The notes under the pieces: model-generated
What the model was told of the DNA's origin: nothing
The model's database searches: none
What the model saw: the letters and a program-made list of their open reading frames with translations, nothing else
NCBI RefSeq assembly: GCF_000801335.2
Contig: NZ_JSEH01000009.1
Location: 62,001 to 126,000, forward strand
DNA: 64,000 nt
From: Desulfovibrio sp. TomC
GTDB lineage: Bacteria > Desulfobacterota > Desulfovibrionia > Desulfovibrionales > Desulfovibrionaceae
Reading direction: 5' to 3'
Position numbers and translations under genes: made by a program
Shown: positions 28,311 to 45,669 of the stretch, piece by piece
How the letters are laid out: every line of letters starts with the position of its first letter
How positions within the stretch are numbered: the stretch's first letter is position 1

Positions 28311-28328
28311 CTGCGCTCTCTTGGTTGC

Positions 28329-28402
28329 TGGGGGATCGTCTAGCGGCAGGACTGTGGACTCTGACTCCACCAACCTAGGTTCGAATCCTAGTCCCCCAGC
28401 CA
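28329..28402 (+). tRNA. tRNA-Gln (CTG anticodon)
   Basis: The acceptor stem TGGGGGA pairs with TCCCCCA, followed by G and an encoded CCA. The anticodon stem GTGGA/TCCAC holds loop CTCTGAC with anticodon CTG. The T-arm carries the canonical GGTTCGAATCC. It is the first of two tRNAs. Confidence 0.95.
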
Positions 28403-28414
28403 AGAATTGAAAAC

Positions 28415-28492
28415 GTCCCCATCGTCTAGCCTGGTCCAGGACATCGGCCTTTCACGCCGGTAACAGGGGTTCAAATCCCCTTGGGGACGCCA
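28415..28492 (+). tRNA. tRNA-Glu (TTC anticodon)
   Basis: The acceptor stem GTCCCCA pairs with TGGGGAC, then G and encoded CCA. The anticodon loop is CTTTCAC (anticodon TTC). The T-arm contains GGTTCAAATCC. It lies 12 bp after tRNA-Gln. Its 3' end served as an integration site (see attL and attR). Confidence 0.96.
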
Positions 28493-28499
28493 AGCAAAT
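28454..28499 (+). other. attL-like site: 3' end of tRNA-Glu plus 7 bp
   Basis: This 46-bp stretch, from the anticodon arm to just past the CCA, is repeated at 32785-32830 with only two differences. Duplication of a tRNA 3' end is the classic footprint of tyrosine-recombinase integration; here it keeps the tRNA intact. Confidence 0.88.
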
Positions 28500-28501
28500 T
28501 C

Positions 28502-28537
28502 AGCGGTTTACGTCAAAAGCGTAAGCCGCTTTTTCTT
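28502..28537 (+). terminator. Rho-independent terminator after the tRNA operon
   Basis: AGCGGTTTACG pairs with CGTAAGCCGCT (one G-T pair) around a 7-nt loop, followed by TTTTCTTT. It ends the tRNA transcript. Confidence 0.85.
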
Positions 28538-28580
28538 TGGTCCACATCTCGTCCACATCCCCCTCTGTTGTTGCCTCAAA

Positions 28581-28652
28581 TCGGCCGGCGTCTTGTGCTA
28601 CAACGGGGGGCGTAAAGCCCACCATTGTTTGTCAGCGTAAGTCGCTGCCTAT
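28581..28652 (+). repeat. 72-bp direct repeat, copy A
   Basis: Matches copy B (30953-31024) at 64 of 72 positions. Its centre holds CAACGGGGGG and AAAGCCC runs and ends GCGTAAGTCGCTGCCTAT. Each copy precedes an inward-facing integrase remnant, so it is probably the end region of related integrative elements. Confidence 0.8.
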
Positions 28653-28855
28653 CCAATGTCCTTCACCTCCGGTTTGTTTCCCCCGTTGTCCAGCCAGGTG
28701 CGATTGGCCTTGTTGCGACTCGCGTTGACGCCGCGTCCGAACATGAGGATGCCGTCGTTCTTGTTGTAGGCGAAGTTGTCGCTGCGCGCTGATGTTTGCT
28801 CGAGCAGAGACTTGAACAGCTCGATTTCGCATTTAACTTTCGAGGACATAGGCAT
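28649..28855 (-). CDS. Small island protein, unknown
   Basis: A 68-aa frame (66 if the second ATG at 28849 is used) with mixed, natural-looking composition (KVKCEIELFKSLLEQ, then NDGILMFGRGVNASRNKANR). A GAGG motif lies upstream. It sits between the tRNA-Glu junction and the integrase remnant and is transcribed in the same direction as the remnant. No family is recognised. It may be a remnant rather than a working gene. Confidence 0.45.
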   Translation of the reverse strand: MPMSSKVKCEIELFKSLLEQTSARSDNFAYNKNDGILMFGRGVNASRNKANRTWLDNGGNKPEVKDIG

Positions 28856-28890
28856 GATGGACCTCTACGGTTATGGGTTGAAGAAACGGA

Positions 28891-29154
28891 TCATCCTTGG
28901 GCTTCAGCGGCCGGCTTGGTGGAAATGATCTTCCCGGGACCACGGTTGCCCATAACGGCTTCCATTGCCTCCTGGGTCTGCTTGAGGCCGAGGCTCTGGA
29001 GGTGCCGGGTGGTGGTCTGTGGGGACTTCTGCCGGAGCATGGCCTGGATAACGGACACTGGCGGCCCCGCGCGGTACATGATGTTCGCGGTGAGGTAGCG
29101 GATGGCGTGGAACCTGAACGCACGGACGCCGGCCTTCTTGCACCGCCGGTCCAT
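28891..29154 (-). pseudogene. Tyrosine integrase, C-terminal remnant 1
   Basis: About 87 residues corresponding to the end of a phage-type integrase. The active-site pattern FHAIRYLTANIMYRAG (H-x-x-R) is followed by IQAMLRQKSPQTTTRHLQSLG, where a histidine replaces the usual catalytic tyrosine context. The N-terminal 250 or so residues are missing: the frame abuts the 3' end of the TauE gene at 29168. It points toward tRNA-Glu, as expected for the resident integrase. Non-functional. Confidence 0.85.
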
Positions 29155-29167
29155 CAGATGCTGCCGG

Positions 29168-29917
29168 TCAGTGAAGCGACTTTACGAACATTTCAGCGCC
29201 GAGAAGAAGAAGCCCAATCAGGAACCACCGCCGGAAAGTCGCTGGGCGCACGTTCTTGCGGATGGCCTGCCCTATCCACATTCCAGCCAGGGCAGGGAGT
29301 ATTGCCAGTGTCGACAAAAAGAGACTGTTGTAATGGAAGGCATCGCGCAGAAGCAGTCCAGCCGCGAGCGCTAGGGTGGAGACGGTGAACGACAATCCCA
29401 ATGCCTGGACCAAGTCGTCCTTCTGAAGACCTAAAGCTTGAAGATAAGGCACGGCAGGAATGACGAAGACTCCCGTTCCTCCAGTCACCGTCCCGGTCGA
29501 AACGCCGATAAGAAGCGAAAGCCACGTTTCGTGTCGCGCCGGAACCAGGATTTGACGGGCAAGAAGGGTATAGCCGGCGTAGAGGACCAAAGCCGCTCCG
29601 AGCGCACAGGTTGTCAGCCGCGTGTCACCGCTCGCCAAGAGGGCGGTGCCTGAAACAGTACCGGCGACGATGGCGAGCATCATGGGCCAAAGTCGCCTGG
29701 CCAAAGCCGCGAAGTTAGGTCCAGCCAAAAGCTGCCAGATATTTGTGACGAGCGATGGAACAACAAGAAGAGCCGCCGCCGTGACTGGAGAGAGCAGCGT
29801 TCCGAGTACACCCATGGCCACTGTAGGCAGCCCCATTCCGGTGACTCCCTTTACGATGCCGGCGACAAAGAATGTGGCCCCAACCTCTATAATCATACAT
29901 GTCGTTGTGCTGAGCAT
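29168..29917 (-). CDS. TauE/SafE-family membrane exporter
   Basis: A 249-aa protein with about eight hydrophobic segments and the family N-terminal motif FFVAGIVKGVTGMGLPTVAMG, plus a second-half repeat GVSTGTVTGGTGVFVIPAVPYLQ. TauE/SafE proteins export sulfite or organosulfonates; in a sulfate reducer sulfite release is plausible but unproven. A GTG start at 29950 is also open; ATG 29917 is preferred. It is divergent from a LysR gene and is cargo of the tRNA-Glu element. Confidence 0.85.
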   Translation of the reverse strand: MLSTTTCMIIEVGATFFVAGIVKGVTGMGLPTVAMGVLGTLLSPVTAAALLVVPSLVTNIWQLLAGPNFAALARRLWPMMLAIVAGTVSGTALLASGDTRLTTCALGAALVLYAGYTLLARQILVPARHETWLSLLIGVSTGTVTGGTGVFVIPAVPYLQALGLQKDDLVQALGLSFTVSTLALAAGLLLRDAFHYNSLFLSTLAILPALAGMWIGQAIRKNVRPATFRRWFLIGLLLLGAEMFVKSLH

Positions 29918-29973
29918 GGCCTCACAATGCGTTATCGCCCCGCGAGGCACAATGCGGAATTCTCGTAGCGTGA

Positions 29974-29990
29974 CTTCGGCTGGACCGAAG
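29974..29990. promoter_or_regulatory. Candidate LysR operator between exporter and regulator
   Basis: An inverted repeat CTTCGG-CTGGA-CCGAAG lies in the gap between the divergent exporter and LysR genes. It is where a LysR-type regulator would be expected to bind for self-control and exporter activation. Confidence 0.4.
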
Positions 29991-30015
29991 GCTCGCTGTG
30001 TCGTATCATCCTTGT

Positions 30016-30903
30016 ATGCGCTACGATCTCACCGATCTTCGGCTGTTTCTCGCGGTCATCGAGGCCGGGAGCATCACCCATGGGGCTGCAGGGGCCAATC
30101 TGTCACTGGCTGCCGCCAGCGAGCGGCTGCGGGACATGGAAGAAGCCGGAGGGGTGAAGCTGCTTGAGCGCGGACGAAGGGGGACCGTCCCGACAGAGGC
30201 TGGCGATGCGTTGGCTCACCATGCACGGATTGTCCTTCGTCAACTCGAAGAGATGCATGCTGAGCTCGGTGACATCGCAAAGGGCCTGCGTGCCACTATA
30301 CGTCTGCTGGCGAACACGGCCGCAATGACGGAATTTCTGCCCGACCGCCTTGGAGCCTGGCTTGCCGCGCACCCGCACATTGATGTTGACCTGAAGGAAC
30401 GGCAGAGCGCCGATAGTGTCAAAGCCGTGTCCGCCGGGTTGGCCGAAGTCGGTATCATCGCCGATGCCGTCGACACGGCGGGGTTGGAACTCCAGCCCTT
30501 CGCCGTCGACAGGCTGGTGGTCGCGGTTCCGCGAGGCCATGCCCTTGCCGCAAAAAAGAAAATTCTTTTCAAGGAGATCCTGCACGAGCAGTTCGTGGGG
30601 CTTGCCCGGGGAGCTTTGCAGGAGCACATCGACGGACATGCCGCCCGCCTGGGCAAGAAGCTGATCTTCCGTGCCCGAGTGCGCACCTTCGAAGCCATTT
30701 GCGGCATGGTTGCGCAGGGCGTAGGCCTTGGCATCGTTCCGCAAAGAGCCGCTCGCAGGTGCCGCGGTTCACTGCCATTATCATTGGTCAGCTTGCTTGA
30801 CCCTTGGGCGACGCGCCACCTCTCGGTCTGCTATCGTTCAAAGGATGATTTGTCTTCACTCGCCCAAGACCTTCTCATGCATCTGGCAGCGCGCACGGAG
30901 TAG
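30016..30903 (+). CDS. LysR-family transcriptional regulator
   Basis: A 295-aa protein. An N-terminal winged helix-turn-helix (LRLFLAVIEAGSITHGAAGANLSLAAASERLRDME) and the linker helix are typical, followed by a periplasmic-binding-like effector domain (ATIRLLANTAAMTEFLPDRLG, GLGIVPQRAARR). It is divergent from the TauE/SafE exporter, a common pairing in which the regulator controls the exporter gene. GTG 29998 is an alternative start. Confidence 0.9.
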   Translation: MRYDLTDLRLFLAVIEAGSITHGAAGANLSLAAASERLRDMEEAGGVKLLERGRRGTVPTEAGDALAHHARIVLRQLEEMHAELGDIAKGLRATIRLLANTAAMTEFLPDRLGAWLAAHPHIDVDLKERQSADSVKAVSAGLAEVGIIADAVDTAGLELQPFAVDRLVVAVPRGHALAAKKKILFKEILHEQFVGLARGALQEHIDGHAARLGKKLIFRARVRTFEAICGMVAQGVGLGIVPQRAARRCRGSLPLSLVSLLDPWATRHLSVCYRSKDDLSSLAQDLLMHLAARTE

Positions 30904-30952
30904 ACCGCGAGTTCCGCACGAAGTAAGCATCCTCCCCTGGCAGTTGGTCAGA

Positions 30953-31024
30953 TCGACCGGCTTCTTGTGATACAACGGGGGGCATAAAGCCCCCCATTAT
31001 TTGCCAGCGTAAGCCGCTGCCTAT
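30953..31024 (+). repeat. 72-bp direct repeat, copy B
   Basis: Counterpart of 28581-28652 (64/72 identical). It is followed directly by a hairpin GAGGCAG/CTGCCTC with TTTTGTTTT (31026-31060), which overlaps the 3' end of integrase remnant 2. The hairpin and T-run recur at 32889-32925. Confidence 0.8.
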
Positions 31025-31036
31025 AGAGGCAGCCGG

Positions 31037-31168
31037 TCAGACCCCGACTGCCTCTTTTGTTTTGAACTCGATCGCCTTTCCCCGTCCGCGTTGGCCCATG
31101 ACCCCTTCCAAGGCTTCCCGGGTCTGTTCAAGCCCCAGGCTCCCGATGTGCCCAATCGACGGTGATGC
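31037..31168 (-). pseudogene. Tyrosine integrase, C-terminal remnant 2
   Basis: On the minus strand this reads GHIGSLGLEQTREALEGVMG and on to KAIEFKTKEAVGV-stop. It is clearly homologous to the end of remnant 1 (QSLGLKQTQEAMEAVMGNRG). Only about 40 codons survive; upstream the frame is unrelated. It shows that a second element of the same kind once inserted here. Confidence 0.75.
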
Positions 31169-31832
31169 TGCCCTTAAGGCTGGCCAATGGCTCATGGGCG
31201 ATAAGCCGCAAGGATGCGTCTCCCAGGCCTTCGACTGCGCTCTGGGTGTCGGCCGGCATCAGAGTAGAGGGCGACGTAGATTCGCCGGCTCATGCAGGCC
31301 ACCATGGCTTTCCCATTCAGGGCAACCCCTCCCACACGGCCGCTAATGCTACTTTCGGTTGCTCCACCGCTAACTCAAGTTGGCGGTCTCCGCTGTTTCG
31401 TTAGAAAAAGAGCACGATACTCCTGCGTTTTGCGAAAGGTCGGATGTTGGCACTTAACTTGCGTAAGGGCTTATCGGGTATGTTTGGCGTCGAAGCACAG
31501 CAGTTTACGGACGCAATCGTTCCTTTTTTAGGCATCGAACGTCTCATTATAGCAAGAATGCGCCGAGATGAGGCGGATTTGTTGGTGCGTCCTGAGCTAG
31601 GCAATGCATGGTGTTGGCGTGACAGACCTTTACAGCAGGCACGGCTGAACTTGGGCGACATCTTGTCTGAATCGGCCGAGGCCCTGGCCCTGGCCGAACA
31701 GGCCGAAGCGAGATGGTCAGGCAGACTCAGGCGCTGCACACACGGCTGGAGTCGAAGTGAAGGGTGCCACATCCTTGTTCAATCCTTCCGGCTCAAGTGG
31801 CGGGAGCAAACGGGATATATAAGGAGTACTGT
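31169..31832 (+). other. Decayed island DNA with one doubtful frame
   Basis: No recognisable gene. A 132-codon frame at 31444-31842 (GMFGVEAQQFTDAIVPFLGIERLI, ARMRRDEADLLVRPELG) is open, but an equally long frame lies opposite it. It runs into the start of the cytochrome gene and has no ribosome-binding site. It could be a fragment of a mobile-element gene. The left third contains minus-strand fragments fused to integrase remnant 2. Confidence 0.35.
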
Positions 31833-32633
31833 ATGGTTTTGAACAGACGAGCGATGCTTGGCACATTGGGTGGACTGGTTGTTGGTGGCGCACTTGCCGC
31901 GACGGCTTGGCCGGCGGCGGCCGCGACGTTTGATCAGAAGAGCGCTCCGTTTGGTTGGACGCCACACAAGCTTGATCCGGTCGCCTGCGCCAAGGTGGCC
32001 TACGATGGTTATTGGTTTAATGACTACGGCTGCTGTTATGGGGCCTTTTATGCCATCATCGGCACCATGGGCGAAACGTTTGGCGCGCCCTACAACCAGT
32101 TTCCTTTTACCATGATGGAAGTTGGCAAGAGTGGTATTTCCGATTTTGGAACCATCTGCGGGGCGCTTTTGGGCGTGGCCAGTTCCTATTCTCTGTTCTG
32201 GGGCCGTAATGAGCGAAACCCCATGGTTTCCGATTTGTTCCGCTGGTATGAAAAAACTTCCTTCCCCATGTACGATCCGGGCGATGCGGCCCAGGGCGTG
32301 AAAGGTCCTTTGCCCACCAGCCTGTCCGACTCGGTCCTGTGTCATATTTCCGCAAGCCGCTGGTGCACCTCCTCCAAGCGAGCCCAAAGCTCCAAGGACC
32401 GCAATGAACGATGCGCCCGCGTCACCGCTGATGTGGTGACGCAGGGTATCGCCATTTTAAATGCCAAGATCGATGGCACGTTCAAGCCGACGGGGAAATC
32501 CGAGGCCGTGGCCTATTGCGGCGAATGCCATGGCAAGGACAAGCAGGCGGATAACGCGAAGGGCCTTATGGATTGCAGGCCCTGCCATGGCGGCAGCGAA
32601 CATGTGCAGGACAAGTTTCAAAATCATCCGTAG
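31833..32633 (+). CDS. Split-Soret-type dihaem cytochrome c
   Basis: A 266-aa periplasmic protein. It starts with a twin-arginine-like signal (NRRAMLGTLGGLVVGGALA). The middle has the cysteine pattern of the C_GCAxxG_C_C family: CAKVAYDGYW, GCCYGAFYAIIG (about 67-78), ICGALLG (about 109) and later single cysteines. The C-terminus carries two c-haem sites, CGECH and CRPCH (about 229-252). This combination is that of split-Soret cytochrome c, first described in Desulfovibrio desulfuricans, where two haems and an iron-sulfur cluster are present. The partner is unknown. AAGGAG lies 6 nt before ATG 31833. It is cargo of the tRNA-Glu element. Confidence 0.85.
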   Translation: MVLNRRAMLGTLGGLVVGGALAATAWPAAAATFDQKSAPFGWTPHKLDPVACAKVAYDGYWFNDYGCCYGAFYAIIGTMGETFGAPYNQFPFTMMEVGKSGISDFGTICGALLGVASSYSLFWGRNERNPMVSDLFRWYEKTSFPMYDPGDAAQGVKGPLPTSLSDSVLCHISASRWCTSSKRAQSSKDRNERCARVTADVVTQGIAILNAKIDGTFKPTGKSEAVAYCGECHGKDKQADNAKGLMDCRPCHGGSEHVQDKFQNHP

Positions 32634-32784
32634 CCCTGTTCCTCCCTTGTTTGCCTCTAGTGGTCCACGCTATTGTCCACATCACGCCATGAGCGTGGTG
32701 CGTTTCTTGAGCCTCATGAACGGGAAAAGTAAAAGTATTATATTAGGATGTTTGGAAAAGTATTTGCGTCTGCTCTGCCCTTCG

Positions 32785-32830
32785 ACGCCGGGAACAGGGG
32801 TTCAAATCCCCTTGGGAACGCCAAGCAAAT
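32785..32830 (+). other. attR-like site: copy of the tRNA-Glu 3' end
   Basis: Matches 28454-28499 at 44 of 46 positions, including the T-arm and GCCA. The sequence just left of it is not tRNA, so this is a partial copy and not a second gene. It is followed by a small hairpin (GGGAGTT-GTG-AACTCCC, 32832-32848). Confidence 0.88.
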
Positions 32831-32899
32831 CAGGGAGTTGTGAACTCCCAGTCTTCGAATCGCCCACTGGATAGCGTGGGTGGAGAGAGAGGCAGCCGG

Positions 32900-32962
32900 C
32901 TAGACTCCGACTGCCTCTTTTGTTTTGAACTCGATCCCCTTTTCCCATCCGCATTGGCCCAT
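32900..32962 (-). pseudogene. Tyrosine integrase, C-terminal remnant 3
   Basis: On the minus strand the last 20 codons read MGQCGWEKGIEFKTKEAVGV-stop, nearly identical to remnant 2. The surrounding stretch (32889-32960) also repeats 31026-31100, including the GAGGCAG/CTGCCTC hairpin. It lies just outside attR, so a further element was once integrated beyond the present one. Upstream of this piece the frame is lost. Confidence 0.7.
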
Positions 32963-33031
32963 GCCGTCACCTTTTCGGCTTGGCTTGCTCTGGCCTTCCG
33001 TAACGTCACGTCGGCGAGATAGGCGTTGGCC

Positions 33032-33643
33032 TTACCTGTGCCATGCGAATGCCGGGTCGATGCGAAATGAACGAGCCAAATCGGCGAGGACGGGCGTCAG
33101 CGTCTCTATCAGGGACGGATCGTAAGTCAGCTCAAAGCTGGCCTGAACCCCATGCTCCAGGATCGTCTTGCGGTAGAAGATCTTCCCGTCTCTTGTGCCG
33201 GACAAGACAAAGAAGTTCTTGCCCTGATGCTTGTAACTGATCTCCTGCCCGGACTCCCGTAGCGCCTGATCGTAGACGGCGGACAGTTTCTTTCCCTGAA
33301 CATTCGTATACCCGGCCCAGCAGGTCAGCCGGGCCTTGTCGTCCGGCGCGACGAACAACTGGCCGTCGCCGGCGTCCGATTCGCCAAGGGCCTTGAGGAG
33401 TTTTCTGGGCCAAGCCAGCACGTAGCCGTACGTGTGGTTGGCGTAGCAGTCGTACACGTCCGTCCGGGCACACACCGCCTCGATCGCCGACGCCGCTTTC
33501 GGATCAGTCGTTTGACTTCCGGCCCAGGCTTCCGGGCTGCCTGCCGCCATGGACACCGCCAGCGCCAAGGCCAGGGCCGTCGGCGGCAGACTTGCCCTGG
33601 TCGTGTTTGCCGCTATTTTCCCCAATGCGTGCCGAATCGTCAT
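33032..33643 (-). CDS. Secreted protein, unknown
   Basis: A 203-aa product with a long Sec signal peptide (about residues 15-42, ending AWA). The mature part has four cysteines (CARTDVYDCYANH, LTCWAG) that may form disulfides and alternating beta-like segments (KNFFVLSGTRDGKIFYRKTILEHG, then FELTYDPSL). No family is recognised. It is the first of a group of small secreted orphans extending to 40 kb. Confidence 0.7.
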   Translation of the reverse strand: MTIRHALGKIAANTTRASLPPTALALALAVSMAAGSPEAWAGSQTTDPKAASAIEAVCARTDVYDCYANHTYGYVLAWPRKLLKALGESDAGDGQLFVAPDDKARLTCWAGYTNVQGKKLSAVYDQALRESGQEISYKHQGKNFFVLSGTRDGKIFYRKTILEHGVQASFELTYDPSLIETLTPVLADLARSFRIDPAFAWHR

Positions 33644-33676
33644 GGCGGCGTCTCCTGGGCCATAAATGCCGTCCGT

Positions 33677-34081
33677 CTATTTCGTTTTACGGTAACTGCC
33701 GCCAAAATAGCCCGACATGCCGCATTCGCCGCCCTTGGATTCCATGTCCACCACAGCGGTGTCGCCTTTAAAGGAAATGGCGAACTTGATGCCGTCATCC
33801 TCGGTGCCGCCTTTGGCCGGCAGATCGTCGTTCACGCGGCCGCCGCCCTGGTCGATGGGGGTCTCGTAGGTTTCGAAGTCGCACATCTGCCCGTTGCTTT
33901 TGCTCTTGGTCTTGAACTTGAATACAAAGCCCGGTCCCATCTGCGAAATGGTCATGGTTCCTTCGTAGCCCGGTTCGACGTAGGCATACCGACCCGCAAC
34001 GCCCTTGGCCTCGCATTCCCCGGACAGAGCCAGACTGATCGCGACCGCAGCCAGACCGGCCGCCAGATACCCTTTGCCCAT
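33677..34081 (-). CDS. Small secreted beta-rich protein, unknown
   Basis: A 134-aa product with a Sec signal peptide (LAAGLAAVAISLALSGECEA) and a mature domain of repeated strands (AGRYAYVEPGYEGTMTIS, GFVFKFKTKSKSNGQMCDF, IKFAISFKGDTAVVDM). It resembles small lipocalin-like barrels; two cysteines near the end may pair. It shares strand and theme with its neighbours. ATG 34081 follows AGGAG by 7 nt. Confidence 0.7.
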   Translation of the reverse strand: MGKGYLAAGLAAVAISLALSGECEAKGVAGRYAYVEPGYEGTMTISQMGPGFVFKFKTKSKSNGQMCDFETYETPIDQGGGRVNDDLPAKGGTEDDGIKFAISFKGDTAVVDMESKGGECGMSGYFGGSYRKTK

Positions 34082-34310
34082 GTTCCTACTCCTGTCTGTT
34101 CGTTGAGGCGTCTTGCATCCCGGACCGCGTTGCCGCGTCCAGGTGCAAGCGCCGTTGTGGCCAAAATCCCGGCCGCGCGCCGCGCCAGGGCCGGCGACGC
34201 CCCAGCGCCCCGAGTGCCGCGTTGGGGAAGGACTGTTGTATTTTGGCGCCACAACAGACCGTATTTCCAATTTTTATTCGTAAAACAGCAATGTTCTTGC
34301 GAAGGCGACA

Positions 34311-34802
34311 CTACCGGGTTTGGCGGTCGATGCACATGCGGTAGGCGGACTCTTCCCCGGCCGTTTTCACTTCAGTCAGCCGGAAGCGAAATCCGCCGTG
34401 GGTCCAGAGCCTGTCGCCCTTGCTCCGCAGGCCTGTGCCCGCCTTGGCGGTCAGCCAGGCCGCGAGTTGCGCGGCCACGGGATTTTGCTCCTTGGCCATG
34501 GCGTCGATGATCGCGCCCGTGAACAACCCCTTCGCGTCAAAATCAAAGGCCAGGCTCACCGGCCCCTGGCCCGGCACGGCAATGACGTCATACTGGATCC
34601 GTGTTGGAGTCAGCACCGACGGTTGCTCCTGCGGCCAAACCCGGCGCAGGGCCGCCGCGACGTCGCTTCGCCGTGAATCCCGATCCAGGGTCAGGCTCTG
34701 GCCGCCCACCGACAAGGGAAAGCCGGACTCGCCGCCGGCCGCCGAGGCTGCGATGACCAAGAGAAGCAAGAGCACCCCGGGAAGCACGCTGCTGGTACGC
34801 AT
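34311..34802 (-). CDS. Secreted protein, unknown
   Basis: A 163-aa product with a Sec signal peptide (PGVLLLLLVIAASAAGGES). The mature part starts with a repeat-like GGQSLTLDRDSRRSDVAAALRR, followed by a beta-rich region (IQYDVIAVPGQGPVSLAFDFDAKG) and a C-terminal pair RMCIDRQTR. No assignment. It is divergent from the 7TMR-DISM kinase at 35 kb, with a promoter region of about 230 bp between. Confidence 0.68.
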   Translation of the reverse strand: MRTSSVLPGVLLLLLVIAASAAGGESGFPLSVGGQSLTLDRDSRRSDVAAALRRVWPQEQPSVLTPTRIQYDVIAVPGQGPVSLAFDFDAKGLFTGAIIDAMAKEQNPVAAQLAAWLTAKAGTGLRSKGDRLWTHGGFRFRLTEVKTAGEESAYRMCIDRQTR

Positions 34803-35033
34803 GAATCTGTCCTTGTCCGGCTGAATGTTTCGCTTTGACCGGAGTGCCGCCGGGACGCGCCCGGCACGTGGAGCGCCCTGGCCGCAAAACCGCCCGGATT
34901 GCCTGTGACGCCCGGACGAATGCCGTCGACACCTGTTGCTGGATGATACGGCACGGGACGCCCCAGGTCTGTACGGGGATTCCCGGACAGGCCGGATCAG
35001 CCGCCATGTCGTCCGGGTTGGTCAATCCGCCCG

Positions 35034-37430
35034 GTGAACCAGCAGAAAAACCAGTCCGTACCAGGCCGCCACGGCCGTTATCGCCAAGAAAATGATTGCC
35101 CTGGCTCCTGCGCGAAGGTATTTTTTGACTGGATGTTTCACGTTTTTTTCTTTTTCGCCTGCGGTGCTACGATGTTTCGACACGGCCGGGCGCTCCCAAG
35201 GGCCCGGCCGTGTCGCGCCCTGGCCTCTGACGGGGCCAAGCTCATTGCCTGGGCCAACCGGCCGTGCGCGCCAAGGGCGTCCCCCCGGTCTGGCGGCGCG
35301 TTTGCAGAGCAGACGCCGACGCGAGGCAGGGCCGCAACCCTGTCCGAGTCTCGCTCCAGCCAGAACCGGCTCCGAAGACAAGAACCGCTGGCGTCTCCAG
35401 CCGCTCCACCGCGCTCCCGTCCGGGGAGACGTGCCTGGACGGCTCCGGCGGCGTGTCTTGTGCTGGCGATCGTTCTGCTCATGGCCTGCTGCAGCCCGGG
35501 CCAGGCCGAAACGCCGCCGTCCGCGCCCCGGGCCAAAAAAGGAGTCGTCAACCTCGCCGGTTGGGACATGGCGGTCCACGGCCCGTTGCGCCTGGACGGC
35601 GAATGGGAATACTACCCGCGCCAACTGCTCACCCCGAAAGATTTCCAGGCCGGCGCGCCCCGCAGCGAGGCCGGCCTCTACGTCGTGCCGCAGCCCTGGA
35701 ACCGGAGCCGGTCCGACAATGAAGCCATGGGGGCCGACACCGGGTTCGCCACCCTGCGCCTGCGCCTGGAACCGGCCCCGGGCCTGTCCCGGCCGGCCCT
35801 GGCCCTTTTCAGCCTCAATGCCGCCTATCGCCTGTGGATTGACGGCGTGCCAACGGCCGGCAGCGGCACGGTCGGGACGGACAGCGCCACTGAAATTCCC
35901 GCGCCGGCCAAGCAGATTGTTCCCTTTGCCGGCGCCGGGCGTCCCGTGGACATCCTTTTGCAGGTGTCCAACCACCACGCCCGCGACGGCGGGGTGGTCG
36001 CCCCGGTCTGGCTCGGCTCCCAGTCGACGCTGGCGGCCTGGGCCGACCGGGACATGGCCACGGCCATGTTCTTTATCGGCGCATTTTGCCTCATGGGCTT
36101 GTACCATGCCGTGTTGTACTGGTTTCGCCCGGCCAATAGCGCCCCCCTGTATTTCTCCCTGTACTGCTTTGGCTGGATGGGAAACTATGCCGCCTCGGAC
36201 AGCAGCGGCTGGGCGCTGCGCCTTTTTTTCCCCAACCTGACCGCCCGGTTCCTGGACCCGCTGGCCTTGTCCTGTTTTTTTATAACAATTCCAGTTGGCT
36301 ACGCTTTTTTCCGGTCCCTGTATCCCTTGGAATTCTCCAGACAGCTGCAATGGTTTTGCAACCTGCTGTGTATCGTGTTCGTCGGCGTGGCCCTGTGCGC
36401 CTCGGGCTTGACGCTCAACGCTGTTCTTCCCTGGCACTATCTCGCTTCCAGCCTGCTTATCGTCTCTTGCGTACGCTGTCTGTACCGGGCCTGGCGTCGG
36501 AAACGGGACGAAGCAGGCTTTCTCCTGGCCGGATTTTGCGTGCTGGGCCTTATCGGACTCAACGACATGCTGGTCGACATGCACCGCCTGCCGTCTACGC
36601 CGCTGTTGCCGGTGGGCATGCTGGTCTTCAGCCTGAGCCAGGCCTTTGCCCTGTCGCACCGGTACTCCCAGGCCTTTGCCTCGGAAGAAAAACTGGCGAC
36701 CGATCTTGTGGACAAAAATCTGCGTCTGGAAACGGAGATGGCCGAAAGGACGCGGCTTGAGCAACGGATTGTGACCGTTAGCGAAGAGGAGCGGCGGCGT
36801 ATCAGCCTGGAACTCCACGACGGCCTGTGCCAGGGCCTGACCGCCGCCCGGCTGCGCTGCGACGCCCTGTCGCCTGGGGGCAGCGCAGCCGGCGCGGACG
36901 GCGAGGCCCTGGGCCGTCTGTCCGGTCTGCTCGATACCCTGGTCGATCAGGCCTATGACCTGTCCCGGGGGCTGTGGCCCCTGGAACACGACGGCGTCGG
37001 CGTCGGACCGTCCTTTCGGGAAATGATCCGCAGACAGGCCGAATCAAGCGCCGTCCCCATCGAGTTTCATCGGGAGCTGTATTGTCAGGCCTGCCGCCGT
37101 TCCCATCTGGCCCAGCTGTACCGCATCGCCCAGGAGGCCGTGGCCAATGCCCTCAAACACGCCCGGGCCGGGCGCATCGTGGTTTCCCTGGCCTGCCCCG
37201 CCGGCCAAGGGACGGTTTTGGCCGTGCGCGACGACGGTTGCGGCCGCTGCGGGGCCAAAGCCTCGGCCGGCGGTCTCGGACTGGGCCTCATGGCCCACCG
37301 GGCGCGTCTGATCGGCGGGGAACTGCACATTCAAGACGCCCCTGGCGGCGGCACGGAAGTGGTCTGCACGGCTCCCTGCCCGGACCTGGCGGGCGGGGTC
37401 GGCCTTCCCGAATCCCGGAGGCCGAAATGA
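35034..37430 (+). CDS. 7TMR-DISM sensor histidine kinase, HisKA_3 class
   Basis: The reading frame is 798 codons, but the first 130 lack features, so the true start may be further in (ATG 35133 or 35172, or near the signal-like AACLVLAIVLLMACC at about residue 140). The protein then has an extracytoplasmic 7TMR-DISM ligand domain (GEWEYYPRQLL, VPQPWNRSRS), seven membrane segments (about 345-560), and a NarX/DesK-type kinase: H-box ISLELHDGLCQGL (His about 595), N-box QEAVANALKHARAG and G-box GGLGLGLMAHRARL. The ligand is unknown. It overlaps the response regulator by 4 bp. Confidence 0.87.
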   Translation: MNQQKNQSVPGRHGRYRQENDCPGSCAKVFFDWMFHVFFFFACGATMFRHGRALPRARPCRALASDGAKLIAWANRPCAPRASPRSGGAFAEQTPTRGRAATLSESRSSQNRLRRQEPLASPAAPPRSRPGRRAWTAPAACLVLAIVLLMACCSPGQAETPPSAPRAKKGVVNLAGWDMAVHGPLRLDGEWEYYPRQLLTPKDFQAGAPRSEAGLYVVPQPWNRSRSDNEAMGADTGFATLRLRLEPAPGLSRPALALFSLNAAYRLWIDGVPTAGSGTVGTDSATEIPAPAKQIVPFAGAGRPVDILLQVSNHHARDGGVVAPVWLGSQSTLAAWADRDMATAMFFIGAFCLMGLYHAVLYWFRPANSAPLYFSLYCFGWMGNYAASDSSGWALRLFFPNLTARFLDPLALSCFFITIPVGYAFFRSLYPLEFSRQLQWFCNLLCIVFVGVALCASGLTLNAVLPWHYLASSLLIVSCVRCLYRAWRRKRDEAGFLLAGFCVLGLIGLNDMLVDMHRLPSTPLLPVGMLVFSLSQAFALSHRYSQAFASEEKLATDLVDKNLRLETEMAERTRLEQRIVTVSEEERRRISLELHDGLCQGLTAARLRCDALSPGGSAAGADGEALGRLSGLLDTLVDQAYDLSRGLWPLEHDGVGVGPSFREMIRRQAESSAVPIEFHRELYCQACRRSHLAQLYRIAQEAVANALKHARAGRIVVSLACPAGQGTVLAVRDDGCGRCGAKASAGGLGLGLMAHRARLIGGELHIQDAPGGGTEVVCTAPCPDLAGGVGLPESRRPK

Positions 37431-38071
37431 CCGCGAATCCGGAAAACGGCGTGCGGATTTTTTTGGCCGACGACCATCCGGCCGTGCGCGAAGGGCTTAC
37501 CCTGCGCCTGCTCCAGGAAGGGTTCGTGGTCTGCGGCGAGGCTGAAAACCGGGCCACGCTGCTGGCCGGCATCGACGCCAGCCGGGCCGACATCGCCCTG
37601 GTGGACCTGACCTTGTGCGGCGAAAACGGCCTGGATCTCATCGCCGAGCTGGACGCCCGGGACATTCCCGTCCTTGTCTATTCCATGCACGAAGACGCCG
37701 AGACCGTGCGTCTGGCCTTGGCCAGAGGGGCGCGCGGGTATGTCGCCAAGCGCGAGACCTCGGCCGTGCTGGTGGACGGCGTGCGCTGCGTCCTGGCCGG
37801 GCAGCGCTACCTAAGTCCCCGCGTCGAGGCCGCCCTGGAGTCCTCCCCGGCCCTGGAGCCGGCCGCTGGCCAGACCGGGGCGCTGAGCGAACGCGAGCGC
37901 CAGATACTGAAACGCCTGTCCCAGGGCGAAGGCAACACCGAGATCGCCGCTGCCCTCGGGGTCAGCGTGCGCACCGTGGAAAGCTACCACGCGAGAATCC
38001 TGGTCAAGCTGCGCCTCGACGGCATGAAGGCCCTTCGCAAGTACGCCATCCGCCAATACAAGCCGGACTGA
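37427..38071 (+). CDS. NarL/FixJ-family response regulator
   Basis: A 214-aa protein: receiver domain with acidic patch LADDHPAVREG, phospho-acceptor Asp about 60 (LVDLTLCGENG) and conserved lysine in GYVAKRETS, then a LuxR-type helix-turn-helix (LSERERQILKRLSQG, TEIAAALGVSVRTVESYHAR). The start overlaps the kinase stop (ATGA) and has CGGAGG 5 nt upstream. It is the cognate partner of the 7TMR-DISM kinase; targets may be the neighbouring secreted proteins. Confidence 0.93.
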   Translation: MTANPENGVRIFLADDHPAVREGLTLRLLQEGFVVCGEAENRATLLAGIDASRADIALVDLTLCGENGLDLIAELDARDIPVLVYSMHEDAETVRLALARGARGYVAKRETSAVLVDGVRCVLAGQRYLSPRVEAALESSPALEPAAGQTGALSERERQILKRLSQGEGNTEIAAALGVSVRTVESYHARILVKLRLDGMKALRKYAIRQYKPD

Positions 38072-38155
38072 TCCGCTTTGCCGCCGGCTGCCCCGGCCAG
38101 TGTTGCCCGGCAGACACGCCGCTTTTCCCAGGCACGGCCCTGTGCCGCCCCGTCC

Positions 38156-38295
38156 ACCCGCTCCTCGTCCCAAATCGCGAGTGAAGCCCCTTCGCCCGAA
38201 CCAACGCAGACCCTAACGCTCCATCCTCGCCCGCCCCTCGTCCCGAACCGCCAATGAAGCCGCTTCGCCCGAACGAACGCATACCGCAACGCCCC
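38156..38295 (+). repeat. Tandem imperfect repeat, two units, 73-bp period
   Basis: A unit beginning near 38156 recurs 73 bp later (near 38229). Both contain CTCGTCC, TGAAGCC, TTCGCCCGAAC and AACGCA in the same order. The stretch is non-coding, between the response regulator and the next secreted-protein gene. Confidence 0.65.
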
Positions 38296-38340
38296 GGGCA
38301 ATCGCCGGTTCCAGCCCCGGTCCAGGCAGCGCAAGCGCCC

Positions 38341-38362
38341 CTGTCCGGGAAATCCCGGACAG
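38341..38362. terminator. Perfect 10-bp inverted repeat
   Basis: CTGTCCGGGA and TCCCGGACAG are separated by two bases. It lies downstream of the response-regulator gene and upstream of the next gene, so it may end the two-component transcript or serve as a protein-binding palindrome. There is no T-run. Confidence 0.4.
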
Positions 38363-38464
38363 ACAAAACACCCGACGCCCCGTAGATGACTCGCGGTTGC
38401 CGGCTTGGGCCGGCGTTCCTGCCGCAGATCGCGGACATGGGGCCATACACCGTTGGATGTTGTC

Positions 38465-39061
38465 ATGAAACGACTGTTCGCGCTGCTGTTGTTGTTTGCC
38501 GTTCTGCTCCCGGGCCAGGCCCAGGCCAACGCTCCCTTGTCGCCGGAAACCCGCAAAGAACTCAGCGATTTCTTCAGCCCCTTTGCCGCAGCGAACATGA
38601 AAAGCTTCGATCAGGGCACGCTCACCGAAAAGGACCTGCTCTCTTTCGCCATATGGCATTGCATCATGCACCCCGACCCCGCGCTCAAAAGGATCAACAG
38701 CGGCAACGGCATTGTCATACCGCCGCAGGTTATCGACACCATCACCCGGACCTTCTTCGACCGGACCATAAAAAAACACCGCAAAGCCCAATACGTCGAA
38801 TCCCTGGGCAGCGGCGAGGCCTTCGTGTTCGCCCAGGCGGACAGCCTGCGCCAGCGTGACGACGGCACGTTTCTGGCCGCCGGGACCATCTATTATACCG
38901 GAGCCGGAGAGACCATCGATCCCTACGCAACCCGGGCGCAGTGGAAGCGCTCGGGGGCCGACGTCCGCGTCTGGGGAACATTCACCGGCGTTCTTCGGCG
39001 CACGGCCGCCCCCCAGGCCCGTTGGGTCCTGCTCCAGTACGCCGTGAAGGAAACACAATAG
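38465..39061 (+). CDS. Secreted protein, unknown
   Basis: A 198-aa product with a Sec signal peptide (KRLFALLLLFAVLLPGQAQA). The mature part has a helical first half (SPETRKELSDFFSPFAAANM, ISFAIWHC-like) and a beta-rich second half (FLAAGTIYYTGAGETIDPYA, VRVWGTFTGVLRR). No family is recognised. It is in the same orientation as the response regulator upstream, after a 393-bp gap containing the tandem repeat. Confidence 0.7.
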   Translation: MKRLFALLLLFAVLLPGQAQANAPLSPETRKELSDFFSPFAAANMKSFDQGTLTEKDLLSFAIWHCIMHPDPALKRINSGNGIVIPPQVIDTITRTFFDRTIKKHRKAQYVESLGSGEAFVFAQADSLRQRDDGTFLAAGTIYYTGAGETIDPYATRAQWKRSGADVRVWGTFTGVLRRTAAPQARWVLLQYAVKETQ

Positions 39062-39154
39062 CCCCAAGGCCGGCTTCGCCGACGCCCCGGGAGGCGGCAT
39101 CCCCCCCGTGGCGTTGGCATGACCCGATACAACCGTATTGCAAAGGAGAGTCTC

Positions 39155-39532
39155 ATGCTGTTTAGATCATTCGTTGCCGCTGTCCTGCTCTTTGTCGCCA
39201 GCACTGCCACCTGTTTTGCCTATTCCGACGAGATCAAATGGCTTCGCAACCAAAGCTTCAAAGCCTGCCCGAAATATTACGTCTGGAGACTTGTCGACAA
39301 TTATTTTCCCGACGCCAAGTGGGATTCCGGCTGGTCCGACGAAGGCGACTACATCGTCAACGTCCGGGGCGCAATGTCCTTTAAGGGGCAGAATGTCAAA
39401 GCCCTGTTGCAGTTTACCATCGACCCGAAACAGGGAAAGTTCAACATGAACGCCCTGGAGTTCAACGGCCATCCCCAGGACAAGGACATGCGCGTGGAAC
39501 TCATCAAGGCCATGTGCCAGGACGTGCAGTAG
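39155..39532 (+). CDS. Small secreted protein, unknown
   Basis: A 125-aa product with a Sec signal peptide (LFRSFVAAVLLFVASTATCFA). The mature part (IKWLRNQSFKACPKYYVWRLVDNYF, then a strand/turn set VNVRGAMSFKGQNVKALLQF) resembles small extracytoplasmic domains that follow membrane proteins in other families, but I give no name. ATG 39155 has AAAGGAG 7 nt upstream. Confidence 0.7.
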   Translation: MLFRSFVAAVLLFVASTATCFAYSDEIKWLRNQSFKACPKYYVWRLVDNYFPDAKWDSGWSDEGDYIVNVRGAMSFKGQNVKALLQFTIDPKQGKFNMNALEFNGHPQDKDMRVELIKAMCQDVQ

Positions 39533-39706
39533 CCCGTTGCAGGCAACCGGCCCTGGTCCACGCGTAGAGGGCCGGTTGCAACTGGGCGATCAAAACAGGC
39601 GGCTCATCCATCAGGGCCGGTAGCAACGGCCGGAGAGCTCCGGCCCGGCCGCGTTCCCGAAGCCCGGCCGGGCAGGCGACAGGAAACCCGGAGGAGGGGA
39701 GAAAAT

Positions 39707-40174
39707 ATGGCGAAGCGGAACATGCAGCAGGACCGGAGACCGGCGTTGCGGGCGATCTGGCTGCGATGCCTGGCCCTGGGCCTGTTTCTGGCGGCCGGCC
39801 TGACGGCCGTGCCCGCAGATTGCCAGGCCAAGGCGGACTATGCGTTCATCGGCATCAAGGACGCCTCCCAGGTGCCGAAATTTGTCGCCAGCCTGCAAAA
39901 GGCCTTGGCGGCCGACGACAGGAACGCCGTGGCCGGGCTTGTGTCCTACCCCCTCATGGTTTCGGCCGGCGGCCAGGACCTGGAGGTCGAGGACAAGGCT
40001 GCTTTCCTGCGCCACTACGACCGGATCATCACCGAGGCGATCAAGCAGAACATTCTGGCCCAGCGCCTGGACGATATCTTTGTCAACAAGCAGGGCGTGA
40101 TGGTCGGTTCCGACGGCAAGGTCTGGGCCTTGCCCGACGGCAAGGTCCTGCGCATTGGCGTCATCCGGGACTAG
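39707..40174 (+). CDS. Small secreted protein, unknown
   Basis: A 155-aa product with an N-terminal hydrophobic signal (IWLRCLALGLFLAAGLTAVPA, with a basic run before it). The mature domain has two long helices (ASQVPKFVASLQKALAADD, RHYDRIITEAIKQNI) around YPLMVSAGGQDLEVED and a final beta hairpin (GVMVGSDGKVWALPDGKV). GAGGAGGGG precedes the ATG. It is the last of the six secreted orphans. Confidence 0.72.
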   Translation: MAKRNMQQDRRPALRAIWLRCLALGLFLAAGLTAVPADCQAKADYAFIGIKDASQVPKFVASLQKALAADDRNAVAGLVSYPLMVSAGGQDLEVEDKAAFLRHYDRIITEAIKQNILAQRLDDIFVNKQGVMVGSDGKVWALPDGKVLRIGVIRD

Positions 40175-40387
40175 GTCACGAAAGCGCCAGGAGCGTTGAC
40201 AGCAACTGGCATCGCTTGGCCGGCGAGCCTCCAAGCAAGCGGAAGCGCCGATGCGAGGCGAAGACCCCGGGAGACATGTTCGTCCAGAATACGTCTCATG
40301 CGAGGGCTTCGGATGATTTGAGCCCTGTTCCAGGCAAGGGCGGCCTGGAGCGGTTGTGCCGCCGCGCCGGGCGGCGCGGGCCGATGC

Positions 40388-40459
40388 CCCTGCCCCTGTC
40401 GCCCAAAGCGGCAGGGGCAGGGTGGGAAGCGGCATCGCCGGCCGACCGGCCGATGCCGC
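40388..40459. terminator. Two adjacent hairpins between convergent genes
   Basis: CCCTGCCCCT pairs with AGGGGCAGGG (40388-40422), and GCGGCATCG pairs with CGATGCCGC (40429-40459). They lie between the plus-strand gene ending at 40174 and cooS (minus, ending at 40505). Neither has a long T-run. The 330-bp gap holds no other gene I can see. Confidence 0.5.
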
Positions 40460-40504
40460 CCGCGACGCCGGAGAGCGCCGCACGGGCGGGGGGAAGGCCT
40501 GGGT

Positions 40505-42385
40505 TTAGGGAGTAAGCCCCAGGGCTGTGCGTTTGGCCCGAATGCGGGCGTCAATGAGTTCGGCTGCCTTGACCGGGTCGCCCTCCACGGCAAAGCTCGC
40601 CCCCACAACGCCCTCCAGCCCCGAAACGGCCAGATCGGTGACGGCTTTGCTGCCGAGAATGGGCGGGGCCAGTCCGAGTACGGTGAAGATGCCGCTGGCC
40701 ACCGCGTAGAGGCCGATGGTGGCGGCTTTTTCCGAATACCACTCCGGCGCGGCCGCAGCCACCGGCAGATCCGAGATGTCCACGCCAAGGGCCGTGGCCA
40801 GCATGCCGCACAACTGCATGATCCTGGAGTTGTCCACGCAACTGCCCACATGCAGGACCGGGGGGATGCCCAGGGCCTTGCAGACTTCGGACAGGCCCGG
40901 ACCGGCCAGATCGGCGGCGGCCGGCAGTAAAAGCCCCTGCTTGCCGGCGGACACGGTGACGCAGCCGGTGACCAGGACCAGCAGGTCGCGCTTGATGCAC
41001 TCCCGGATGAGATTGGAATTCTGATAGTCCTGCTTCACTTTCGGGTTGTTGCAGCCGACGATGCCGACGGCCCCGCGGATCTTGCCGGCCTTGATGGCCT
41101 CGATCAGCGGCCCGGCCGTGCCGCCCAGGGCCGTGAGCACGGCTTCGTTGGAAAAGCCGGTCATGACTTCCACGGGTTCGACCGGGATTTCCACCCGGCC
41201 GGGGTCGCGGACCTTGAAGCGTTCGATGGCCAGTTCCACCACTTCCACGGCTTTTTGCCGGGCGTTGTGCACGGTAAACTCGATATGGGTCGCCCCGGTG
41301 AACTTGGCCTTGGGCGAGGTGGTGACGATGCGGCTGTGGTAGCAGCCGGCCACGGTCACAAGGCTCGGCATGATGCACTGGTAGTCGACCACCACCACTT
41401 CCACGGCCCCGGTGACCAGGGCCAGCTCGGTCATGAGGTGGTTGCCGGCCATGGGGATGCCCTGGCGCATGAGCAGCTCGTTGCCGGTGCAGCACAGCCC
41501 GGCCAGATTGAGGCCCGAAGCGCCGGCCGCCTTGGCCTTGGCCAGCAGGGCGGGATCATGGACGGCGGCCAGGATCATTTCGGACACGATGGGGCTGTGG
41601 CCGTGGACCAGGATGTTGACCTGGTCGGCCTTGAGGACCCCGAGATTGACTTTGGACATCCGGGGCGTCGGCGTCCCGAACAGGATGTCCGAAACCTCGG
41701 TGGCGATCATGGACCCGGCCCAGCCGTCGGCCAGGGAGAGCCGGGCGGCGTGCAGGCACAGGTTCGTTGCGTCGTTGTCCACGCCCATGTGGGTGCGGTG
41801 CAGCATCTCGACCACGTCCCGGTCGACGCCGCGCGGGGTGATGCCCACCTTTTCCCAGAGCGCGCGCCGTTTGGCCGGAACCCGGCCGATAAAGGAAATC
41901 GAACCGCGCCGGCAGCCGAAGTCGCCAAAAAACTGCTCGGCCAGTTCCACGGCCACCGCTTTGGCGTCCTTGCCGGCCGTGGTCAGGCCGACCTCCTCGG
42001 CGATGCGGCGCAGCTTGGCCTCGTCGCGGATGCCGTAGTCGGTGGTTGTTCCCTCGCCCACGGCCAAAAGCGTCTCGATGAGGTCGCGGCCGTGATCCGA
42101 ATGGGCCGCCGCGCCGGCGGCCACCATGCGCCCGAAGTTGCGCGCCACCACCACGTCGGCGTCGGCGCCGCAGACCCCGCGCGAAGGGCCGTTGCCAAAG
42201 GGATCGATGCGACAGGGACCCATGATGCAGTTGCGGCACGACAGGCCGAGTTCGCAGAAGCCGCAGTGGGGTTCCTGTTCCCGCAGGCGGTCCCAGACCG
42301 TCTCGACGCCGTCCTCCCGGGCCTTGGCGATCATGGCCTGGGCGTCCTTGCAGATGGAGTATTCGCTCAGATCTTTCTTGCCCAT
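40505..42385 (-). CDS. cooS: Anaerobic Ni-Fe carbon monoxide dehydrogenase catalytic subunit
   Basis: Oxidises CO to CO2 at a Ni-Fe-S cluster. The 626-aa protein has the N-terminal cluster-binding set CGFCELGLSCRNCIMGPCR (D/B clusters), then C-cluster ligand regions such as HGHSPIVSE, GLCCTGNELL, YQCIMPS, IVGCNNP, VTGCVT and GSCVDNSRI. Length and motifs match monofunctional CooS. It is the last gene of a minus-strand operon with cooF, an oxidoreductase and cooC. Confidence 0.96.
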   Translation of the reverse strand: MGKKDLSEYSICKDAQAMIAKAREDGVETVWDRLREQEPHCGFCELGLSCRNCIMGPCRIDPFGNGPSRGVCGADADVVVARNFGRMVAAGAAAHSDHGRDLIETLLAVGEGTTTDYGIRDEAKLRRIAEEVGLTTAGKDAKAVAVELAEQFFGDFGCRRGSISFIGRVPAKRRALWEKVGITPRGVDRDVVEMLHRTHMGVDNDATNLCLHAARLSLADGWAGSMIATEVSDILFGTPTPRMSKVNLGVLKADQVNILVHGHSPIVSEMILAAVHDPALLAKAKAAGASGLNLAGLCCTGNELLMRQGIPMAGNHLMTELALVTGAVEVVVVDYQCIMPSLVTVAGCYHSRIVTTSPKAKFTGATHIEFTVHNARQKAVEVVELAIERFKVRDPGRVEIPVEPVEVMTGFSNEAVLTALGGTAGPLIEAIKAGKIRGAVGIVGCNNPKVKQDYQNSNLIRECIKRDLLVLVTGCVTVSAGKQGLLLPAAADLAGPGLSEVCKALGIPPVLHVGSCVDNSRIMQLCGMLATALGVDISDLPVAAAAPEWYSEKAATIGLYAVASGIFTVLGLAPPILGSKAVTDLAVSGLEGVVGASFAVEGDPVKAAELIDARIRAKRTALGLTP

Positions 42386-42402
42386 GAGTTCCTCCGGCAG
42401 GA

Positions 42403-42936
42403 TCAGGCCTTGACGCCGTACACGGCGTTGGCCAGTCGGTTCGTGCCTTGCTTGAGATACAGGTTCACCTCGTCAAACGTGAGCGCCCCTGTCTTGCAGG
42501 CAGCAACGCAGGCCGGGATCGCCCCTGCCGCCACGCGCTCATGGCAGCCGTCGCATTTGACGGCCACGCTCGGCCGTTCCGGCGCGCCCGCGTCCTGGAA
42601 AAAACGAATGACGTAGTAGGGGCAGGCCATGGCGCACATGCCGCACCCGATGCACCGCGTCGGGTCCACGATTTTGAGACCCTCGGCGATATCGTCGCGA
42701 ATCGCCCAGGGCATGCAGGCTTCCTGGCAGGGAGCCGGTTCGCAGTGGCGGCACTTGTTGGGGAAGGGTTTGTTTTCCGGCCCCACGCCAAGATGGATGC
42801 GCGGCTTGGCCAGGATCTCCTCGCCGATGGCCGAGGCCAGGGATTTGGACTGGGAATGGGCCTCGGCGCAGCGGATCATGCACTGCATGCAGCCTACGCA
42901 CAGTTCGGGCCGGACAATGACGGTTTTTTTGAGCAT
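42403..42936 (-). CDS. cooF: CooF-like 4Fe-4S ferredoxin subunit
   Basis: Carries electrons from CooS. The 177-aa protein holds four cysteine sets for 4Fe-4S clusters: CVGCMQCMIRC, CRHCEPAPCQEAC, CIGCGMCAMACP and CDGCHERVAAGAIPACVAAC. ATG 42936 follows AAGGAGG by 4 nt. It starts 48 bp after the oxidoreductase gene and ends 18 bp before cooS, so it is in the same transcript. Confidence 0.92.
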   Translation of the reverse strand: MLKKTVIVRPELCVGCMQCMIRCAEAHSQSKSLASAIGEEILAKPRIHLGVGPENKPFPNKCRHCEPAPCQEACMPWAIRDDIAEGLKIVDPTRCIGCGMCAMACPYYVIRFFQDAGAPERPSVAVKCDGCHERVAAGAIPACVAACKTGALTFDEVNLYLKQGTNRLANAVYGVKA

Positions 42937-42983
42937 AGTTCCTCCTTGCGGATCGGACAGACCGCCGGGGCGGCGGCCGCAAC

Positions 42984-44249: not shown

Positions 44250-44252
44250 GAG

Positions 44253-45041: not shown

Positions 45042-45566
45042 GAAAACCTCCAGCCAGGAAAGAGGTCCGAAGAGACAGTCTGAAATGCATAGGCCCAGAA
45101 TTCGGGCAGGTCAAATACCCCGGCCCCGGTTGTCCGGCCCGGCGAAAACGGCGCGGTTCCTGACTGCGGCCGCTTTGCGGTCATCTCTTCGCGTATCGGA
45201 CGCCCTCCTGACCGCTTTGGGCACACGGTCTGGAGGTTGGGGCGGGTCACAGGAAAACGCCAGCCGGTTATTTTCCGCATGCAATGTCCGGACAATTGCA
45301 ATGACGATTGACTTTTGCAGACGAGGCTTCATCCGCAAAATGCCGTATTGCCCTGTCGTATCCCTCTTGTGAAGACCACAGTGCGGCCTGGTTCCTACGT
45401 CGGCTTAACGGCACTCTTTTAGTATGAAATAACTGCGCGACACGACGACCCATTGGCCGGCATGTGGCGCAAGCAGTCCATTGCGCCGACAATTCCTCCG
45501 CCTGCCTCGACGCGGTCTGAATGGCAGAATTCTGCAAATCGGATGGGTGATTGCGCCAACTTGTTC
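45042..45566. other. Divergent intergenic region of the coo operon and the sulfatase locus
   Basis: About 520 bp without a convincing gene; short frames on both strands overlap and lack ribosome-binding sites. A 10-bp palindrome TGTCCGGACA (45285-45294) flanked by partly symmetric CAA/TTG bases lies 240 bp upstream of cooC. It resembles a site for a CRP/FNR/CooA-type regulator, though no known consensus fits exactly. Confidence 0.4.
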
Positions 45567-45597
45567 TTGACAAATGGCGATTTCTTTTGCTTAAAAT
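45567..45597 (+). promoter_or_regulatory. Sigma-70-like promoter of the sulfatase gene
   Basis: TTGACA (45567-45572) and TAAAAT (45592-45597) are 19 bp apart, about 70 bp before the sulfatase start. The -35 is perfect and the -10 has a single change from consensus; the spacing is a little long. Confidence 0.55.
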
Positions 45598-45669
45598 AGA
45601 AGCCAATCTCCATTGCTGCATCCTCTTTTGTTGCGCTTTGACAGCTGTCCCGAACAGCAGGAGGACGAC

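Follow-up and report, generated by a model that had tools for sequence, protein, structure and literature searches.

A probable decayed integrative element between two tRNA-Glu 3' halves in Desulfovibrio sp. TomC, and its relatives in the genus Solidesulfovibrio

Contents of the tRNA-Glu(TTC) locus

Within a stretch of 64,000 nucleotides from Desulfovibrio sp. TomC (G000:C9:62001-126000, hereafter the window; source genome 5.07 Mb in 84 contigs), an intact tRNA-Glu(TTC) gene is followed by a second copy of its 3' half. This half runs outward from the anticodon loop and occupies 28448-28499; the copy, at 32779-32830, has the same orientation and is identical at 48 of 52 bases, two of the four mismatches falling in the anticodon. 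An intact tRNA gene followed downstream by a 3' fragment of itself in the same orientation is the signature of a tDNA island. The window was compared with 13 other genomes, giving a set of 14. The genus is Solidesulfovibrio, because the relatives that share the window's neighbourhood belong there: Desulfovibrio sp. DV (G013), S. aerotolerans DSM 16695 (G006), S. magneticus Maddingley MBC34 (G012), S. alcoholivorans DSM 5433 (G003) and two metagenome genomes (G009, G002). S. magneticus RS-1 is G005. The features of the locus are as follows.

28415..28492, plus strand: tRNA-Glu(TTC), intact, the putative integration target (ARAGORN; Rfam RF00005, 59.7 bits)
28448..28499, plus strand: attL, the tRNA-Glu 3' half plus 7 bp (52-bp repeat, 48/52)
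28500..28890, no strand: left-end leader, INT371 family, with repeat D1 (28556-28652) and a putative 68-aa ORF (28327-29176 aligned to G010)
28891..29175, minus strand: INT371-family tyrosine recombinase, last ~95 residues only (profile match and comparison with G010 and G006)
29168..29950, minus strand: TauE/SafE family exporter, 260 aa (PF01925, E 7e-30; dN/dS 0.20 against G013)
29998..30903, plus strand: LysR-family regulator, 301 aa (PF03466, PF00126; dN/dS 0.23 against G013)
30928..31024, no strand: second copy of leader repeat D1, 81% (repeat comparison)
31037..31171, minus strand: integrase tail B, INT2-like (integrase comparison)
31140..31323, minus strand: type I restriction subunit R (hsdR) gene, two pieces (match to a G006 protein)
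31833..32633, plus strand: split-Soret cytochrome c (NF047622, 446.8 bits, cut-off 400; dN/dS 0.11 against G009); the ATG at 31833 is our reading of the start, and the ORF opens at 31764
32661..32779, plus strand: INT371-family right end (matches sequence preceding att copies in G006, G010, G003, G001 and G013)
32779..32830, plus strand: attR (att'), the displaced tRNA-Glu 3' half, TTC type, with four substitutions (repeat alignment)
32831..33030, minus strand: left end of another, INT2-type element, with leader, integrase tail and N-terminal piece (comparison with G002 and G009)

A chance origin of the repeat was ruled out, as the 31-bp att core had two matches in the window at up to 3 mismatches and none in 100 dinucleotide-preserving shuffles. 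Across the genus, the stretch common to the tRNA-Glu copies begins at or beside the anticodon loop. A preliminary description of this DNA had reported a 46-bp repeat (28454-28499 against 32785-32830, 44/46 identical), and this holds and extends to 52 bp. The same description had placed an integrase remnant facing the tRNA between the copies. We observed that the ORF in question (28891-29154, minus strand) matches PF00589 with an E value of 2.6e-5 and 24.5 bits, the Pfam cut-off being 27.1, and that 28894-29175 shares 80% identity with residues 278-371 of a 371-aa integrase adjoining the same tRNA in G010, which confirms the remnant. The surrounding 28327-29176 aligns to G010 as a single block at 82% identity, and the homology stops at the start of the TauE gene. 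Intact 371-aa integrases stand at the same tRNA site in two relatives, G010, where the gene reads toward the tRNA, and G006. The remnant carries His at the position that holds Tyr in both, which we take to be that of the catalytic tyrosine. Over 87 codons its dN/dS was 0.11 against G010; the decay would therefore have proceeded by truncation and is not visible as relaxed selection.

Besides this remnant, two further integrase pieces were found, at ~31037-31171 and 32925-33030, giving three in all. A search of the source genome for INT371- or INT2-like genes returned, apart from the two remnants in the window, only recombinases at 23 and 27% identity; an INT2-like gene should have shown in this search because INT2 is 48% identical to the INT371 query. 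The stretch 28448-32830 has no intact integrase of its own, as an ICE or IME would, and none of its five ORFs scanned by profile matched a relaxase family.

The TauE, LysR and split-Soret cytochrome genes are all complete, each of these earlier assignments being borne out by its profile match, and the dN/dS values listed above indicate that they are cargo kept under selection. Of the 13 other genomes, one has TauE-LysR, three (G009, G003, G001) have the cytochrome without that pair, and none has both. In G013, the closest relative, TauE-LysR is 90% identical over 1756 bp and lies on another contig, alone between two fragments of the tRNA-Glu(CTC) type that are separated by 2.6 kb; the family right end precedes the second fragment, and there was no integrase match between the fragments. 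Around the cytochrome genes of G009, G003 and G001, 18-20 kb contained no att copy and none of three tested integrase types. The homology with G013 ends at 30922 and is followed by the D1 copy, the INT2-like tail and the hsdR pieces, which are 72.7 and 86.8% identical to residues 565-586 and 975-1012 of the G006 protein (HSDR_N and T1RH-like_C domains). This debris of a second integrase subfamily would mean that the content was not brought by one element as such. The earlier view of a small island stands, with its content amended to a patchwork. The case that would have spoken against it, the same inner genes in the same order without a duplicated tRNA end, did not turn up when the DNA of the 14 genomes (13 besides that of the window) was searched. 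The composition check proposed at that stage gave a mixed answer: the GC content of the stretch (57.9%) is below that of all 103 other windows of the same size (lowest 60.05%), and its tetranucleotide distance is only the 9th highest of 104. Composition agrees with an integrated island only in part, and weakly.

The ends in related genomes and the region to the right

The right-end sequence was found in 5/13 other genomes, directly before att copies (four of the five aligned), the match extending over about 119, 105 and 105 bp in G006, G010 and G003, respectively, and over ~55 bp in G001 and G013. In G010 both family ends stand 24.1 kb apart at the same tRNA-Glu gene, and the interval encodes the integrase, a 185-aa second recombinase, a D5-type primase-helicase, an rve/Mu-type transposase and type I restriction-modification genes. 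Related INT371 units measure 17.5 kb in G003 and 29.3 kb in G001. The integrase family, the right end and the att are common to these elements and the window; the tRNA gene is also the same in G010 and G003, whereas the G001 unit stands at a tRNA-Glu(CTC)-type fragment. All three still have an integrase of full length as well as a second recombinase gene, and the G010 element additionally its primase-helicase and restriction-modification genes, while the window retains the ends and three cargo genes. Units of this family carry restriction-modification genes of more than one kind, type I in G010 and a type III methyltransferase in G001.

The stretch 28448-32830 has the same left end and the same right end as the INT371 elements. 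Because both ends match this family and G010 carries both at this tRNA, the stretch is very probably a decayed integrative element, a deletion derivative of the INT371 family. The preliminary description, which had proposed a decayed integrative element between tRNA-Glu ends, was right in kind, and both ends can now be assigned to one element family.

The sequence to the right of 32830 had been expected to be the old flank. This was ruled out by an INT2-type leader and integrase pieces: the 57 bases between att and repeat D2 right of att' equal those of INT2-type elements beside tRNA-Glu(CTC) in G002 and G009, and they adjoin an integrase tail and a piece that matches residues 73-95 (E 9e-5) and ends at 33030. 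On this comparison, att' is shared by two elements, being the right border of the first and the left border of the second. A damaged element left end follows the second copy, and elements therefore probably once stood here in tandem. The strain with an empty site that had been predicted was not found among the relatives compared, and no empty tRNA-Glu(TTC) site was recognised among them. In 11 relatives, the 20 kb downstream of this tRNA (5 kb in G006) gave no match to 32840-46000 of the window. G013 and G008 have several kilobases in common after this tRNA, and their leader was also considered as the native flank; this was rejected, since that leader also comes after att copies in G009 and G010 and diverges further on.

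Further to the right, a block at 33650-40170 with a histidine kinase and a response regulator keeps its order in G010, G013, G006 and G012, away from tRNA-Glu(TTC). In G010 this block comes after tRNA-Glu(CTC)-type fragments together with an integrase remnant, and its contigs in G013, G006 and G012 gave no match to the tRNA query; the block was therefore rejected as native to tRNA-Glu(TTC). Upstream of it in G012 is a gene block (L132:4948-9714) that is chromosomal, occurs in several places in the genus and is uninformative. A carbon monoxide dehydrogenase operon occupies 40505-45041 of the window (PF03063, ferredoxin, oxidoreductase, CooC-like ATPase), and no DNA match to it was found after the 33.65-40.17 kb block in the fetched parts of G010, G013, G006 and G012. 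The displaced block and the operon without a match imply rearrangement of the locus in addition to invasion. A possible native flank is the arylsulfatase at 45.6 kb, which follows an att copy in G013.

Formation of the remnant and alternative histories

As reconstructed from these comparisons, an INT371-family tyrosine recombinase would have integrated a circular element at the 3' half of tRNA-Glu(TTC), with the crossover probably in the anticodon loop. The element's own 3' half would have kept the tRNA intact, and the old half of the host would have been pushed to the far end, now 32830. We propose that this insertion took place where an INT2-type element already sat, so that the far copy came to be followed by an INT2-type left end. 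What survived the deletions that followed would be both ends, the debris and the three cargo genes, with the integrases mostly gone and hardly any mobile genes left.

The arrangement at the middle of the unit allows another history for the same kind of thing, namely two tandem elements, one with TauE-LysR and one with hsdR and the cytochrome, fused by a deletion that removed the att at the joint (30922-30948). This is a real possibility, though we hold it for somewhat less than an even chance: the second leader copy and the integrase tail begin at the very point where the match to the att-bounded TauE-LysR unit of G013 stops, and in G013 that pair does stand as a unit of its own. However, no att is left at the joint, the right end at 32661-32779 belongs to the INT371 family whereas tail B resembles INT2, and the att copies that come after INT2-type units in G002 and G001 are preceded by other sequence. 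A mere duplication of the tRNA 3' end on either side of core genes would look alike if only the repeated tRNA end were considered, but we regard it as very improbable, as copies across the genus begin at the anticodon loop, element ends and integrase pieces adjoin the copies, and the inner genes are found together in none of the other 13 genomes.

For the INT371 deletion derivative that we favour, there is also the question of whether it still moves. Its make-up is that of a cis-mobilizable element (CIME), with both att sites and no integrase of its own, the att copies differing at 4/52 bases, two of them in the anticodon. Mobilisation in trans, for example by an intact 298-aa integrase, seems unlikely. 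Both att copies are present, and the source genome has, at G000:C35:77-970, a 299-codon open frame 98% identical to an integrase of G013, of a type that flanks tRNA-Glu fragments in relatives. On the other hand, the second copy differs at two anticodon bases, in the likely crossover region, and the end sequences belong to the INT371 family, whose integrase is gone from the genome. The earlier statement that mobility has been lost agrees with the presence of the family integrase only as pieces; the loss is nevertheless probable rather than proven, because an intact 298-aa integrase, a user of tRNA-Glu sites elsewhere, is in the genome.

tRNA-Glu arrays in the genus and the magnetosome island of RS-1

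A 63-bp tRNA-Glu query gave 61 matches in 14/14 genomes of the genus. By means of a longer query, 24 of these were assigned to complete genes (12 TTC, 12 CTC), which left 37. Three of the 37, on G000:C10, G000:C38 and G002:C162, are at the ends of contigs and could be broken genes, and two are just 30-33 bases long. From the distribution of these matches, tRNA-Glu appears to be a genus-wide integration hot spot. Among the fragments examined, integrases of the INT371 and INT2 kinds stand just after some, and the 298-aa kind stands just before others, reading away. Contigs G000:C10 and G000:C38 end in tRNA-Glu(CTC) 3' halves, as if the assembly had broken at repeats, and the 298-type gene at G000:C35:77-970 begins 77 bases from its contig end. 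Two tandem att-integrase units with near full-length integrases of different subfamilies are located at tRNA-Glu(CTC) in G001 (L145 399-16418, G001:C8).

In RS-1 (G005:C2), starting from tRNA-Glu(TTC) at 4756 kb, TTC-type fragments occur on the same strand at 4714, 4680, 4609 and 4604 kb, the whole array region covering 4604017-4756102. The magnetosome island of this strain has been placed at 4607747-4689778 with flanking 2.4-kb IS66 repeats, to which loss of the island was ascribed (PMC4287615). We observed that the fragments 4608781-4608828 and 4679958-4680012 lie inside these published borders, 71.1 kb apart, and that the kup and mam genes listed in that paper fall between them. A Kup-like gene is located at 4617768-4619798, and kup mutations have been mapped at 4618459-4619085 (PMC4287615). 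A protein 40% identical to INT371 adjoins the first fragment. Nothing closely similar to a MamE/MamP-type PDZ protein of the island was found in the 13 other genomes, the best identities being ≤41% and over short parts. The main text of PMC4287615 contains no mention of tRNA, and the part of the literature covered contained no link between this island and tRNA-Glu; we claim no priority. Tentatively, we propose that the two tRNA-Glu genes of Solidesulfovibrio may anchor long arrays of att-bounded units mobilised by two or more types of tyrosine integrase, that these arrays exchange their outer segments, and that the magnetosome island of RS-1 may be one such unit. Exchange of outer segments is suggested because the 33.65-40.17 kb block borders the TTC array here and CTC-type fragments in G010.

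The tDNA-island signature was defined in Islander (PMC4383910), where 2083 of 3919 islands are anticodon-centred, tandem arrays of such islands are known, and the most islands of any genome (19) were recorded in Desulfovibrio magneticus RS-1; these 19 may well include the magnetosome unit. The islands of that collection resemble the window in having an intact tRNA, a 3' fragment in the same orientation, an anticodon-type site and a tyrosine integrase. In contrast to them, the integrase of the window is present only as pieces below the Pfam cut-off, and the integrase filter of Islander might miss such an element. The ssrA islands of Dehalococcoides (PMC3146451) are likewise tandem units bounded by 3'-end repeats of an RNA gene, some of them (15) without integration genes, but they use a serine recombinase as integrase and a tmRNA as target. 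The tRNA fragments that such insertions leave behind have been treated elsewhere (PMC9897764). The kind is already known and the genus is already known to be rich in tRNA islands, the stretch 28448-32830 being a decayed member.

What the genus offers is a series of units with recognisable ends, from those of 17-29 kb with a full-length integrase to the 4.3-kb remnant and a 2.5-kb unit without an integrase. In this series one can therefore follow how a mobile element turns into fixed cargo: the mobile genes go and the cargo under selection stays. If the proposed place of the magnetosome island in such an array is true, magnetosome formation would have entered RS-1 by integration at tRNA-Glu. 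More generally, the tRNA-Glu arrays are a place to look for the entry of traits such as this into the genus.
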